Assembly: GCF_900199635.1 (NCBI RefSeq)
Contig: NZ_LT962687.1
Coordinates: 246,863-310,862 of the forward strand
Origin: Anaerotruncus massiliensis (ex Togo et al. 2026)
GTDB lineage: Bacteria > Bacillota > Clostridia > Oscillospirales > Ruminococcaceae
Reading direction: 5' to 3'
DNA: 64,000 nt
The notes beneath the pieces were generated by a model, which was not told the DNA's origin, ran no database searches, and saw only the letters and a program-made list of their open reading frames with translations. The translations under genes and the position numbers were made by a program. Below, one piece after another: positions 8,987 to 12,180 of the stretch. The number at the start of each line of letters is the position of its first letter. Position 1 is the first letter of the stretch.

Positions 8987-9766
8987 TCAGAGGGTGCCGA
9001 GCTCGACGGAGGTGATTACGACGTCCTCGGTGGGCTTGTGGTCCGCGTCGGTGGGGACGGCCGCGATCTTCTCAACGACGTCCATGCCCTCGATGACCTG
9101 GCCGAAGACGGTGTCGCGCGCGTCGTAATTCGGCACGCCGCCGACTTCGAGGTACTTCTGGATGACCTTCTCGGGGAAGCCGCCGTCGAACATCTTGTCG
9201 CCGAGCTCATCGGTGATGCGGGAGTTCTGGACGATGAAGAAGCGGCTGCCGTTCTGGCCGGGGGTGCCGCCGTTATCCATGGCGACGGCGCCGTTGAAGT
9301 GCCAGAGGTTGAGGCTGTACTCGTCCTCAAACGGCTCGCCCGAGGCGCTTTCGCCGCCGCTGCCGTTGTTGTCGGGATCGCCGGTCGCGACGTGGACGCT
9401 CGGCACGGCGCTGTAGACTTTCAGCCCGTTGTAATAGCCCTTTTCCACGAGGGCCTGGAAGTTCTCAACAGCCTTGGGGGCCTCCTTGGGGAAGAGCACC
9501 ATCTTGATGTCGCCGAGGGACGTTTTAATGGTCGCGATGGGGGAACCGGCCTCCGGCGTGTTGAACTGGACCAGGTCGATGGCGGATTCATCGATCTCCA
9601 TGTTGTGGGCGTAGATCTCGGCAGCGGTTTCCGGCATGCTTTCCGGTCCGCTGGTCTCCCCGGACGGGGCGCCGGACTCGGGGGAGGGCTCCTCCGATTT
9701 TTTGCAGCCAACCATCAGCGTGGAAAGCATCAGAACCACGCAGAGCAGCAGGGCGATTTTTTTCAT
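8987..9766 (-). CDS. Cyclophilin-type peptidyl-prolyl isomerase lipoprotein
   Basis: A 259-residue exported lipoprotein. A signal peptide ends in the lipobox MVGC (Cys about 21), followed by a Ser/Pro/Glu-rich linker (to about 55) and a cyclophilin domain. The domain shows IATIKTSLGDIKMVLFPKEAPKAVENF, the core NGAVAMDNGGTPGQNGSRFFIVQ and FGQVIEGMDVVEKI. Such extracytoplasmic PPIases help fold secreted proteins. In classical cyclophilins the core motif reads MANxGPxTNGSQFFI; here MDNGGTPGQNGSRFFI keeps the catalytic surroundings. The GGAGGT ribosome binding site supports the ATG at 9766. Confidence 0.92.
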   Translation of the reverse strand: MKKIALLLCVVLMLSTLMVGCKKSEEPSPESGAPSGETSGPESMPETAAEIYAHNMEIDESAIDLVQFNTPEAGSPIATIKTSLGDIKMVLFPKEAPKAVENFQALVEKGYYNGLKVYSAVPSVHVATGDPDNNGSGGESASGEPFEDEYSLNLWHFNGAVAMDNGGTPGQNGSRFFIVQNSRITDELGDKMFDGGFPEKVIQKYLEVGGVPNYDARDTVFGQVIEGMDVVEKIAAVPTDADHKPTEDVVITSVELGTL

Positions 9767-9925
9767 AATGATGTTACCTCCATGGTTTTATACAGATCTT
9801 CCGAAGGACATGGATTGCTCTTCATATTTTACCACATAATCCGCCAAAATCAATCTCCCTGCAGGATATTCATAGTAAGTTTACGTTTTGGCAATGAATC
9901 GGCGGGCGAGGCCGCGGGGCATACA

Positions 9926-9967
9926 AAAGCGGCGCCGATGATTACCGGCGCCGCTTGATTTTTTTGA
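9926..9967. terminator. Strong GC hairpin, terminator of the leftward noncoding transcript
   Basis: AAGCGGCGCCG-ATGATTAC-CGGCGCCGCTT is a perfect 11-bp hairpin. On the minus strand it ends in TTTTGT; on the plus strand it is followed by GA and seven T. It is the first terminator met by transcription from the promoter at 10702-10730. Confidence 0.75.
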
Positions 9968-10695
9968 CATGTGGCCTGCCGCGATCCCTTCCCACAGCCT
10001 CTTTCGGCCGTGGCGGGCCGTGGCCTGCCGCTCTGTTGGAACCTCGTACATCTATATGCAAGTAACACTCGAAAACATTCGCTGCGGTTACGATCACAGC
10101 TTTTGGACCTTCTTTACGATCCGGTTTTGATTGCCCTTATGCAGTTCGATGACGCAGAATCCATGCTCAGTTCTGGAATATGACCCTTTGCTGCTCAACC
10201 GTAAAGGATGCCTGCAACAATGCCTGGGTTCCCTGGACTGAACGTTATTTGATTGTAGGTCGAATCATTCACATTGCCGGCGTTTCCGAAGCCCTTCACT
10301 CGACCCCGGCGGCGCCGGTGGGATTTTGCCTGGTGCGGTTGCTTTGATAGGATGCGTGCGGTAAACCCGTTTTACGATTGGGACCTGGAATCACAGATTA
10401 TTTGTCTTGCGCGGAATGAACTCGCCTCTTACGATTGAGCATCTTCCTTTCGGGATTCCCTGAAGGGATCTCTCACAAGCACCAAATTCAAGTTGTTTTC
10501 AGATTTACAGATTTTACTCCGGATCATCTTTGAAAATCGACAGAAACTGTGATTGCAGCTGTCCTGAAAACTGCTCCTAGGAAAGCCTGCCCTTGGGCGA
10601 ACAGTCCCTCAATGCAAATGAGAAACTGTGTGCTTCATCGTACATCGGAACCACCGCCTTTCTATGAATATTGGTATCATGTTCCTCTCTTCTGT
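9926..10695 (-). ncRNA. Candidate large noncoding RNA (about 770 nt)
   Basis: This stretch has a perfect sigma-A promoter on the minus strand and a strong terminator at its far end, and no reading frame with a ribosome binding site or a recognisable protein. On the minus strand it holds local hairpins, for example CCACGGCC-GAAAGA-GGCUGUGG (near 10000-10030), a GNRA-type TCC-CGAAAG-GA element, and two copies of GCGGCAGGCCAC near the 3' end. It lacks the hallmarks of RNase P, tmRNA and SRP RNA. Size and isolation suit the large bacterial RNAs (OLE, ROOL or GOLLD-like), but I cannot assign a class. Confidence 0.55.
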
Positions 10696-10701
10696 ATCTA
10701 T

Positions 10702-10730
10702 ATTATAAGCAATTTGTTGGGGAATGTCAA
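10702..10730 (-). promoter_or_regulatory. Perfect sigma-A promoter of the noncoding RNA
   Basis: On the minus strand TTGACA (10730-10725), a 17-bp spacer and TATAAT (10707-10702) give an exact consensus promoter. No protein gene lies downstream for more than 900 bp. It is back to back with the promoter of the DUF1292 gene. Confidence 0.9.
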
Positions 10731-10788
10731 TATGATTTTTTCAAGATTGAAAAGAAAATATATACAACTTGTACACAATGAAAACCAT

Positions 10789-10817
10789 TTGACATTTGCT
10801 TCCCAATGGATTATCAT
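10789..10817 (+). promoter_or_regulatory. Sigma-A promoter of the DUF1292 gene and probably 6S RNA
   Basis: TTGACA (10789-10794), a 17-bp spacer and TATCAT (10812-10817), about 80 bp upstream of the DUF1292 start codon. Confidence 0.8.
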
Positions 10818-10898
10818 GTTATCAAACAGGGATGACAACCGGGCCTTCCGCCCGATTTTTGAGGGGGAATCCACCCCCGGAAAAGGAGAACGGTTTCT

Positions 10899-11213
10899 AT
10901 GGCAAACGAAGAGTTCGGCGCCGATCTGATCACGCTGGTTGACGATGAGGGCCACGAGCATGAATTCGAGATCGTCGACACCCTAGAGCTCGGCGAGCAG
11001 CACTATGTGGCGCTGGTCGCGGACTGCGGCGAAGAGGACTGTGACTGCGAGGACGACGGCGAGCTGGTGATCCTCAAATCGGTCATGGAGGGCGAGGAGG
11101 AGTTCCTCGAGGCGGTCGAGGACGAGGCCGAGTTCGATCAGGTCGCGGCGATCTTTATGGAGCGTCTGTCCGACAGCTTCGAGTTTACCGGCGGCGAGGA
11201 CGGGGAAAACTAA
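10899..11213 (+). CDS. DUF1292-family acidic protein
   Basis: A 104-residue, very acidic protein. It matches the DUF1292/YrzB family widespread in Firmicutes: ITLVDDEGHEHEFEIVDTLE followed by the YVALVAD strand and an ILKSVMEGEEEFLEAVEDEAEF segment. An unusual CGEEDCDCEDDGE cluster (about residues 46-58) could bind metal. The family's function is unknown; in Bacillus it sits near yrrK/yrrL. The AAAAGGAGAA ribosome binding site is good. A 6S-like RNA follows directly after the stop codon. Confidence 0.88.
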   Translation: MANEEFGADLITLVDDEGHEHEFEIVDTLELGEQHYVALVADCGEEDCDCEDDGELVILKSVMEGEEEFLEAVEDEAEFDQVAAIFMERLSDSFEFTGGEDGEN

Positions 11214-11220
11214 TGCCGTA

Positions 11221-11415
11221 ACTCCCTGCCGTACCCGACAGTTCTGCCCTTTATACTCCAACAACTGTACTTTGGGAGTTCCTTTCCGCGTGCGGAGTGC
11301 AGACCTCCCCATCTCACGATGGGACGAAGGGAGCTGGAAACACGCGATCGGGCGTACCCACTCTTGTCTAACGACGGGGGTTTACAGCTGGCAGGACATC
11401 GATACGGCGGGGTTT
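11221..11415 (+). ncRNA. ssrS: 6S RNA (SsrS/BsrA-like)
   Basis: About 190 nt whose ends form the long interrupted closing stem of 6S RNA. CCCTGCCGTA (11224-11233) pairs with TACGGCGGGG (11403-11412), and GTTCTGCC (11241-11248) pairs with GGCAGGAC (11390-11397). An inner helix CGCGTG/CACGCG and a terminal hairpin CCCATC-TCAC-GATGGG complete an elongated hairpin with a central bubble. A T run and a second terminator follow. The tcdA gene is next door, as for B. subtilis 6S-1 beside yrvM. 6S RNA mimics an open promoter and inhibits sigma-A RNA polymerase in stationary phase. Confidence 0.7.
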
Positions 11416-11428
11416 TTACATGTAAAGA

Positions 11429-11466
11429 ACGGGCGCCTTCCAGTTTTGGAAGGCGCCCGTTTTTTG
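11429..11466. terminator. Bidirectional terminator between 6S RNA and tcdA
   Basis: ACGGGCGCCTTCC-AGTTTT-GGAAGGCGCCCGT followed by TTTTTT on the plus strand. The same hairpin lies just past the tcdA stop on the minus strand. Confidence 0.85.
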
Positions 11467-11472
11467 GTTCCT

Positions 11473-12180
11473 CTAAAGTCCCAACAGGTCGCGGGCCGCC
11501 CGGGAGGCGAGCAGGAGTCCGGCCGCGGGCGGCACGAACGCGATGCTTCCCGGCGGGTGCCTTCCGTGCTCCCCGGGGCAGACGGCTTTGGCGGGCTCCT
11601 CGACCGAATAGAGCACCGTCTGGCGGGCCACGCCGCGCCGTTTCAGCTCCCGGCGCATCACCCGCGCGAGCCCGCAGCCGCAGCCGGCCGTGTCCGCGAT
11701 GTCGCCGATGCGCAGCGCGCCGGGGTCGAGCCGGTTGCCGGTGCCCAGGCACATGTAGAGCGGGACCCCGCGCCGGGCGCAGGCCTCCGCGAGATGCAGC
11801 TTGGCGGTCACCGTGTCGATGCAGTCGAGCACGAAATCGGGTCTCCAGTCAAAGAGAAAGCCGCTGTTGTCCGGCAGGTAGAATTCGTACGCGGCGGTAA
11901 AATCCCCCGCAGGGTGGATTGAACCCAGTCGGCGCAGCTCGGCATCCGCCTTGCGCATTCCGACCGCGTCGCGGGTCGCCACGAGCTGACGGTTGAGGTT
12001 CGTCTCGTCCACCGTGTCGTGGTCGACGAGCAGCAGGTGTCCGACCCCCGCGCGGCAGAGCGCCTCCGCCGCCGCCGAGCCGACGCCCCCGAGCCCGAGC
12101 ACTGCTCCCCGCGCGCCCGCCAGGCGCGCGGTGTTCTCCTCCCCGATCAGCAGCGCGGTGCGCGCGAGCCAGTTTTCCAT
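11473..12180 (-). CDS. tcdA: tRNA threonylcarbamoyladenosine dehydratase TcdA
   Basis: A 235-residue E1-like (ThiF/MoeB superfamily) protein that makes cyclic t6A37 in ANN-decoding tRNAs by ATP-dependent dehydration. The nucleotide-binding loop VLGLGGVGSAAAEAL (about 28-42), LLLVDHDTVDETNLNRQ (about 50-66) and FVLDCIDTVTAK (about 116-127) are diagnostic. TcdA normally lacks the ThiF catalytic Cys pattern. It ends at a terminator shared with 6S RNA, and a mosaic repeat block lies upstream. Confidence 0.93.
   Translation of the reverse strand: MENWLARTALLIGEENTARLAGARGAVLGLGGVGSAAAEALCRAGVGHLLLVDHDTVDETNLNRQLVATRDAVGMRKADAELRRLGSIHPAGDFTAAYEFYLPDNSGFLFDWRPDFVLDCIDTVTAKLHLAEACARRGVPLYMCLGTGNRLDPGALRIGDIADTAGCGCGLARVMRRELKRRGVARQTVLYSVEEPAKAVCPGEHGRHPPGSIAFVPPAAGLLLASRAARDLLGL

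Follow-up and report, generated by a model that had tools for sequence, protein, structure and literature searches.

A predicted standalone RNA with extended Shine-Dalgarno start sites and very short ORFs beside DUF1292 in Anaerotruncus and its relatives

The locus and its predicted transcript

The window, meaning the whole 64-kb stretch of DNA that was analyzed, contains on its minus strand a segment of about 770 nt that is delimited by a promoter and a terminator hairpin and is predicted to be transcribed as a single RNA. It is flanked by a divergent DUF1292 gene with a 6S RNA candidate behind it and, beyond the terminator, by a cyclophilin-type gene. The features of the locus are the following.

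8987 to 9766, minus strand: cyclophilin-type PPIase lipoprotein gene (Pfam PF00160), downstream, beyond the terminator
9924 to 9956, minus strand: terminator hairpin and short T run, predicted transcript end
10049 to 10067, minus strand: GUUAC partner of a possible pseudoknot, followed by a motif like UUGCAGAUAGAU
10080 to 10101, minus strand: 5' part of the possible pseudoknot, stem GCUG/CAGC with GUAAC in the loop (96.1% of cells paired; weak)
10398 to 10442, minus strand: sORF2, 14 codons, MLNRKRRVHSAQDK, behind GAAAGGAAG
10577 to 10645, minus strand: sORF1, 22 codons, MYDEAHSFSFALRDCSPKGRLS
10647 to 10661, minus strand: extended Shine-Dalgarno sequence AAAGGCGGTGGTTCC
10702 to 10730, minus strand: sigma-A type promoter, TTGACA-17-TATAAT
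10899 to 11213, plus strand: DUF1292 gene (Pfam PF06949), divergent neighbor
11220 to 11417, plus strand: 6S RNA candidate behind DUF1292 (Rfam RF00013, 45.1 bits, just under the gathering threshold of 46.4)

A preliminary description of this DNA had reported an exact promoter on the minus strand, and all 12 consensus positions are indeed matched (10730 to 10702). By arithmetic with equal base use, about 0.008 such sequences would be expected by chance in 64 kb. The TTGA of the promoter and the TATA of its -10 element are among the invariant columns of 16 aligned homologues. The reported terminator was borne out in part. The GC-rich hairpin exists (9927 to 9956), but the long T run next to it belongs to the plus strand, the only one on which the terminator scan listed it, while the minus transcript has only TTTTG after the hairpin. 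A minus-oriented hairpin with a short T run was found again in close relatives. Stable hairpins had also been described, and the stretch, terminator included, does fold better than its shuffles (-261.5 kcal/mol, z = -4.2; equaled by 0 of 20). The two copies of GCGGCAGGCCAC reported within it are present on the minus strand (9971 to 9982 and 10020 to 10031); they are a local feature, because none of 11 close homologues has them.

In the preliminary description, every start codon was said to lack a ribosome binding site, which proved incorrect. The promoter is followed by AAAGGCGGTGGTTCC-G-ATG, an extended Shine-Dalgarno sequence one base before the ATG at 10645 that opens sORF1, and sORF2 lies farther on (10442 to 10398). 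With one mismatch and one bulge, AAAGGCGGTGGTTCC pairs with the 16S rRNA tail in a duplex computed at -21.0 kcal/mol. A short ORF of 17 to 29 codons occupies the place of sORF1 in 12 of 12 close loci, and ORFs matching sORF2 were found at L042 and L041 (MSNRKRRDHSNADK and MSNRKRRDRFNADK). A Pfam search with the 22-aa sORF1 peptide returned no match, so the earlier statement that the stretch encodes no recognizable protein stands.

Distribution of homologues

Apart from weak matches, the window's own genome has a single full copy. A match (E <= 0.003) was obtained in each of the 10 same-genus (Anaerotruncus group) genomes that were searched. When longer flanks were taken, DUF1292 was seen to adjoin in 9 of these loci and the cyclophilin gene in 8; 6S relatives were detected by BLASTN behind DUF1292 in 9 same-genus loci. 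Across 12 close loci the transcript varied from 471 to 1003 nt in length, and little aligned outside the 5' end.

Wider searches used R1, a sequence-only model of the promoter, leader, Shine-Dalgarno sequence, and start codon, built from 16 sequences without DUF1292. Among 396 family genomes, 335 were positive at E <= 0.01, a figure that we do not use as a count of the RNA because most of these matches are bare promoter look-alikes. Sixty R1 loci, nearly all top-ranked in the list, were fetched and 57 were kept; three (L159, L160, and L161) were left out, as they have no motif or a hit that enters an ordinary ORF. L049, a hit in genome G012 with promoter similarity only, was excluded by eye. 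DUF1292 lay divergently upstream in 48 of the 57 family loci (of the nine loci without it, two are at contig edges), ThiF lay beyond DUF1292 in 24, the cyclophilin gene lay downstream in 13, and a terminator-like hairpin followed in 54. The 5' motif was found in named records, among them those of Anaerotruncus colihominis DSM 17241 and of Marasmitruncus massiliensis. At L119 (genome G014), the DUF1292-6S-ThiF block together with the RNA 5' end occurs twice in tandem, about 3 kb apart and with equal match scores. At L158, a 595-codon ORF behind the RNA resembles, by eye, the RqcH/NFACT ribosome quality control protein.

Within the order, R1 matched 33 of 394 genomes at E <= 1e-5. DUF1292 adjoined 6 of the 23 order loci that were read, a total that includes two loci (L171 and L184) read at the wrong place; three of the six belong to another family (f24). 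Several further order loci show the motif without DUF1292, and L168, L181, L182, and L188 to L192 resemble ordinary genes or lack the motif. A search of the class matched 9 of 291 genomes: three lie within the order in such a locus, with DUF1292 beside two of them, and six lie outside it, four of which look like gene interiors. The other two of these six, L194 and L202, are single units of a Shine-Dalgarno sequence and a two-codon ORF that are not obviously within genes. The reverse approach, starting from DUF1292, recovered the promoter and motif in 15 of 30 loci (9 of 30 under a strict spacing rule). They were present in 8 of 8 loci from the window's family, 6 of 9 from f24, and 1 of 2 from f25, and absent from the single f23 locus, at a contig edge, and from all 10 loci in f8, f13, f16, and f18. 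These sequence comparisons indicate a standalone RNA that is present through the family and patchy in the order. They support the idea of a large RNA that has a promoter and a terminator of its own, with conservation in 10 of 10 same-genus genomes and homologues through family and order.

The preliminary description had proposed that the RNA was one of OLE, ROOL, and GOLLD or a new one. Across the whole window, Rfam 15 returned two tRNAs only at the gathering threshold, and at E <= 10 over 9700 to 11500 it gave a subthreshold 6S match for the neighboring stretch and weak chance matches. Among 20 homologous loci, 6S RNA accounted for 14 hits, spread over 13 loci, and tRNAs for two more; the RNA itself was unmatched. 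No Rfam 15 family scored over the stretch at the gathering threshold; the RNA is therefore not OLE, ROOL, or GOLLD, and the second half of the proposal, a new RNA, is supported. Literature searches, which covered open-access PMC listings, turned up no description of such an RNA.

Ribosome start sites and mini-ORFs in the homologues

Downstream, the homologues repeat the arrangement GGTGANTCC-N-ATG followed by a stop, usually with one sense codon between them. The first site lies within 165 nt in 62 of 69 loci, and its ORF closes within 29 codons every time. First-site ORFs stop after 13 to 29 codons; later sites mostly stop after 0 to 2 sense codons, with 39 of 60 closing within 3 codons in the 69 loci. 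Because ATGA contains TGA, the +1 frame at later sites also closes early (35 of 60 within 3 codons), and the stop-offset count served as the control in its place. The pattern G[GA][TC]GA[AGT]TCC marked 93 sites in 83 loci. One base after it stood ATG at 72 sites and GTG at 3 (75 of 93 together), and ATG occurred 0 to 3 times at each of the other five offsets tested. Of 45 later sites, 27 had a stop triplet three bases past their ATG; each other offset had 0 to 6. The remaining 18 of the 93 motifs have no start codon at +1, so 30S subunits or some other partner may bind there with no translation. Start-less copies of GGTGAGTCC occur, for example, at L185, L144, L145, and L128, often with AAAG or GGCAT instead.

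When ATGs were selected by a Shine-Dalgarno sequence only, with no CC asked for, 73 of the 160 found beyond +190 in the 83 loci opened ORFs of <=3 codons, compared with 1 of 37 in an opposite-strand control. TCC or ACC stood at the usual place in 58 of the 73 short ORFs, and TCC in 14 of 87 in the long-ORF class. Second codons were mostly AAA and TAC, with many others too, and TAA, TAG, and TGA were all used. These short ORFs were distributed over 45 of the 83 loci, up to five per locus, and the other 38 had none beyond +190. At the family level, this is the make-up of a bar-type minigene: Shine-Dalgarno sequence, AUG, few sense codons, and stop. The window copy has no Shine-Dalgarno-preceded ORF of <=3 codons beyond +190, and nothing of the bar type apart from its sORFs of 22 and 14 codons. 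In 9 of the 12 close loci, a start-stop ORF lies 52 to 79 nt ahead of the 3' end; it is missing from the window copy, L043, and L050.

The sites are also restricted in where they occur. A scan for GGTGARTCCVATGNNNTAR in 57 genomes, selected since most carry the locus, gave 19 matches in 15 genomes. Each lies downstream of this promoter, at a distance of 289 to 1197 nt, and the reversed pattern, run as a control, had no match. The farthest, in G148, sits behind an inserted 234-codon ORF. The shorter GGTGRNTCCVATG occurred 28 times in 10 genomes, 17 of them within the locus; the 11 off-locus sites open frames of 6 to 501 codons, none of <=3 codons. Of 28 pairs of neighboring later sites, 13 had a spacing of 43 to 57 nt and none a spacing below 43 nt, whereas uniform placement gave a mean of 1.9 and a maximum of 7 such pairs in 2000 trials; the 13 pairs come from 11 loci, and a single genus contributes four pairs and a single locus three.

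The 16S rRNA ended in GGCTGGATCACCTCCTTTC in all six genomes examined (the window's own and five others). Computed duplexes with this end had a median of -19.1 kcal/mol at first sites and -13.0 kcal/mol at later ones, and eight gene starts of the window ranged from -8.1 to -15.8 kcal/mol. Replacing UCC with AAA cost at least 1 kcal/mol of computed duplex at all 73 first sites and at 71 of the 73 later ones, a test that is partly circular because the duplex sites were chosen with CC; the count based on the Shine-Dalgarno sequence only is free of that. The UCC tail of the extended Shine-Dalgarno sequence could thus pair with the 16S end as well. Since this would presumably require opening the foot of 16S helix 45, we treat it as a computed possibility.

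Codon differences in sORF1 across 10 groups of close relatives comprised 31 synonymous and 67 nonsynonymous changes, in pairs that are nonindependent inside a group. This drift is approximately neutral, and the sORF1 peptide is therefore not the product under selection. Other sORFs may differ in this respect: second sORFs looked alike by eye across some genera, with LLIE ends at L158 and L140 and MLD.KN at L177 and L179. At L175 (G523), in another family, we saw tandem ORFs of about 8 codons, MRIPLLIQ-like at first and MKKFHRLEY-like farther on, and several of them have a hairpin behind them. The term noncoding, used in the preliminary description, is misleading: what the RNA conserves is ribosome start sites, and these open very short ORFs.

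What the RNA may do

Minigenes with strong Shine-Dalgarno sequences are described in PMC8708949 as letting the ribosome reinitiate without dissociating, as favoring toxicity, and as depleting tRNAs. The same source reports that ribosome binding to a six-codon mini-ORF, as well as two-codon minigenes, can protect or tune mRNAs in cis, and it gives a ribosome footprint of about 34 to 38 nt. From these reports follow two leading mechanisms for the present RNA, namely, holding ribosomes in trans and protecting the transcript in cis.

We hypothesize that the RNA has been selected to load initiating ribosomes on very strong mini-ORFs and that it may hold them in trans, a reading to which we assign a probability of roughly 0.45. 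A strong promoter would produce an RNA with an extended Shine-Dalgarno sequence, a start codon one base on, and a quick stop. On it, 30S subunits would bind, initiate, terminate nearly immediately, and perhaps bind again without departing; a spacing of about 50 nt would leave room for one ribosome per site. In this way a number of ribosomes, or else factors and initiator tRNA, could be held on each RNA, which would lower or buffer free initiation capacity, much as the adjacent 6S RNA may do for RNA polymerase. A more specific version, in which the start-stop array is a ribosome sponge that parks or titrates initiating ribosomes and is paired divergently with 6S across DUF1292, we put forward only tentatively. 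The regularity of the spacing, the exactness of the stop, and 6S as a neighbor are among our reasons for favoring holding in trans over action in cis.

Known systems resemble this RNA in parts. The minigenes of phage lambda bar share with it the order of Shine-Dalgarno sequence, AUG, one or few codons, and stop, and so do the two-codon leader minigenes of axe-txe and LEE1 ler (PMC8708949). Those minigenes, however, occur singly or in twos within other transcripts and act in cis or are toxic when overproduced, whereas the present RNA is a dedicated and conserved transcript that carries as many as five ORFs of <=3 codons, each preceded by a Shine-Dalgarno sequence. 6S RNA (RF00013), which holds RNA polymerase, is likewise a standalone structured RNA and sits on the other side of DUF1292; its sequence differs, its transcription is divergent, and the ribosome as target of the present RNA is our proposal. 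RNAIII and SgrS are small RNAs with their own promoter and terminator and a small ORF that encodes one conserved peptide, and they pair with target mRNAs. The present RNA also has its own promoter and terminator, but it has many tiny ORFs, and the conserved functional peptide expected of a dual-function small RNA was not found for sORF1. To our knowledge, ribosome hibernation is carried out by proteins.

The main rival is that bound ribosomes shield the RNA itself from nucleases or early termination, with its function residing elsewhere, such as in the pseudoknot, UUGCAGAUAGAU, or other hairpins. Several observations agree with this, including the cis-acting mini-ORFs and minigenes reported in PMC8708949, the strength and regularity of the 5'-most site, the start-stop ORF near the 3' end of most close loci, and the well-folded RNA of the window. 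Shielding requires no exact stop after a single sense codon, however, and no other family-wide element emerged. TTGCAGATAGA is present in just 5 of 83 loci. The sORF1 hairpin seen in the window reached z <= -1.5 in only 14 of 73 cases (median, -0.51), which rules it out as a general element. TTGCAGATA is exact in 7 of 12 close loci and inexact in the window. In the pseudoknot alignment a single pair changed on both sides; 442 of 500 shuffles matched it on that measure, and 12 of 500 had a covariation score at least as high. Covariation for a common fold is weak, at one pair in the helix tested. We regard protection in cis as less likely than holding in trans. Repeated hairpins occur within the RNA at L045 and L061, with GTGTTGATAAAT and GGAGGATGGTTCCCTC loops, respectively.

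The RNA might instead act as a decoy, its target being a small RNA or an RNA-binding protein with affinity for GGUGANUCC-NAUG-like start regions. This would accommodate both the motifs that lack a start codon and the rarity of the motif elsewhere, given that none of its off-locus sites opens an ORF of <=3 codons. But a bare binding site would not need an exact start codon and an in-frame stop, and the complement of the motif is the 16S tail itself, which makes a decoy unlikely. Still less probable is a messenger for micropeptides. Although second sORFs are similar across genera (L158 and L140; L177 and L179; the tandem ORFs of L175) and sORF2 is common to the window, L042, and L041, the sORF1 peptide drifts, has no Pfam match, and would be joined by a dipeptide as the commonest later product.

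That the RNA is a leader or attenuator for a downstream gene is very unlikely. The cyclophilin gene does follow in the same genus and in some family loci, but a terminator intervenes in nearly all of the latter, downstream genes vary, the conserved neighbor is upstream and divergent, and the cyclophilin gene comes with a separate promoter-like site (9853 to 9826). Finally, a large ornate RNA of the OLE, ROOL, or GOLLD kind (PMC12286853), likewise large bacterial RNAs without a long ORF, would suit the size, promoter, terminator, and stable fold, but is hardly credible for an RNA with no Rfam match, such variable length, little alignable sequence, no family-wide fold found, and one covarying pair.

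If the RNA does hold initiating ribosomes in trans, a family-wide RNA that engages them via tandem start-stop minigenes would constitute a new layer of translation control beside the control of transcription by 6S RNA. RNAs classed as noncoding could then work through being translated, with no useful peptide made. Because A. colihominis DSM 17241, a cultivated gut bacterium, carries the RNA, the idea is directly testable.
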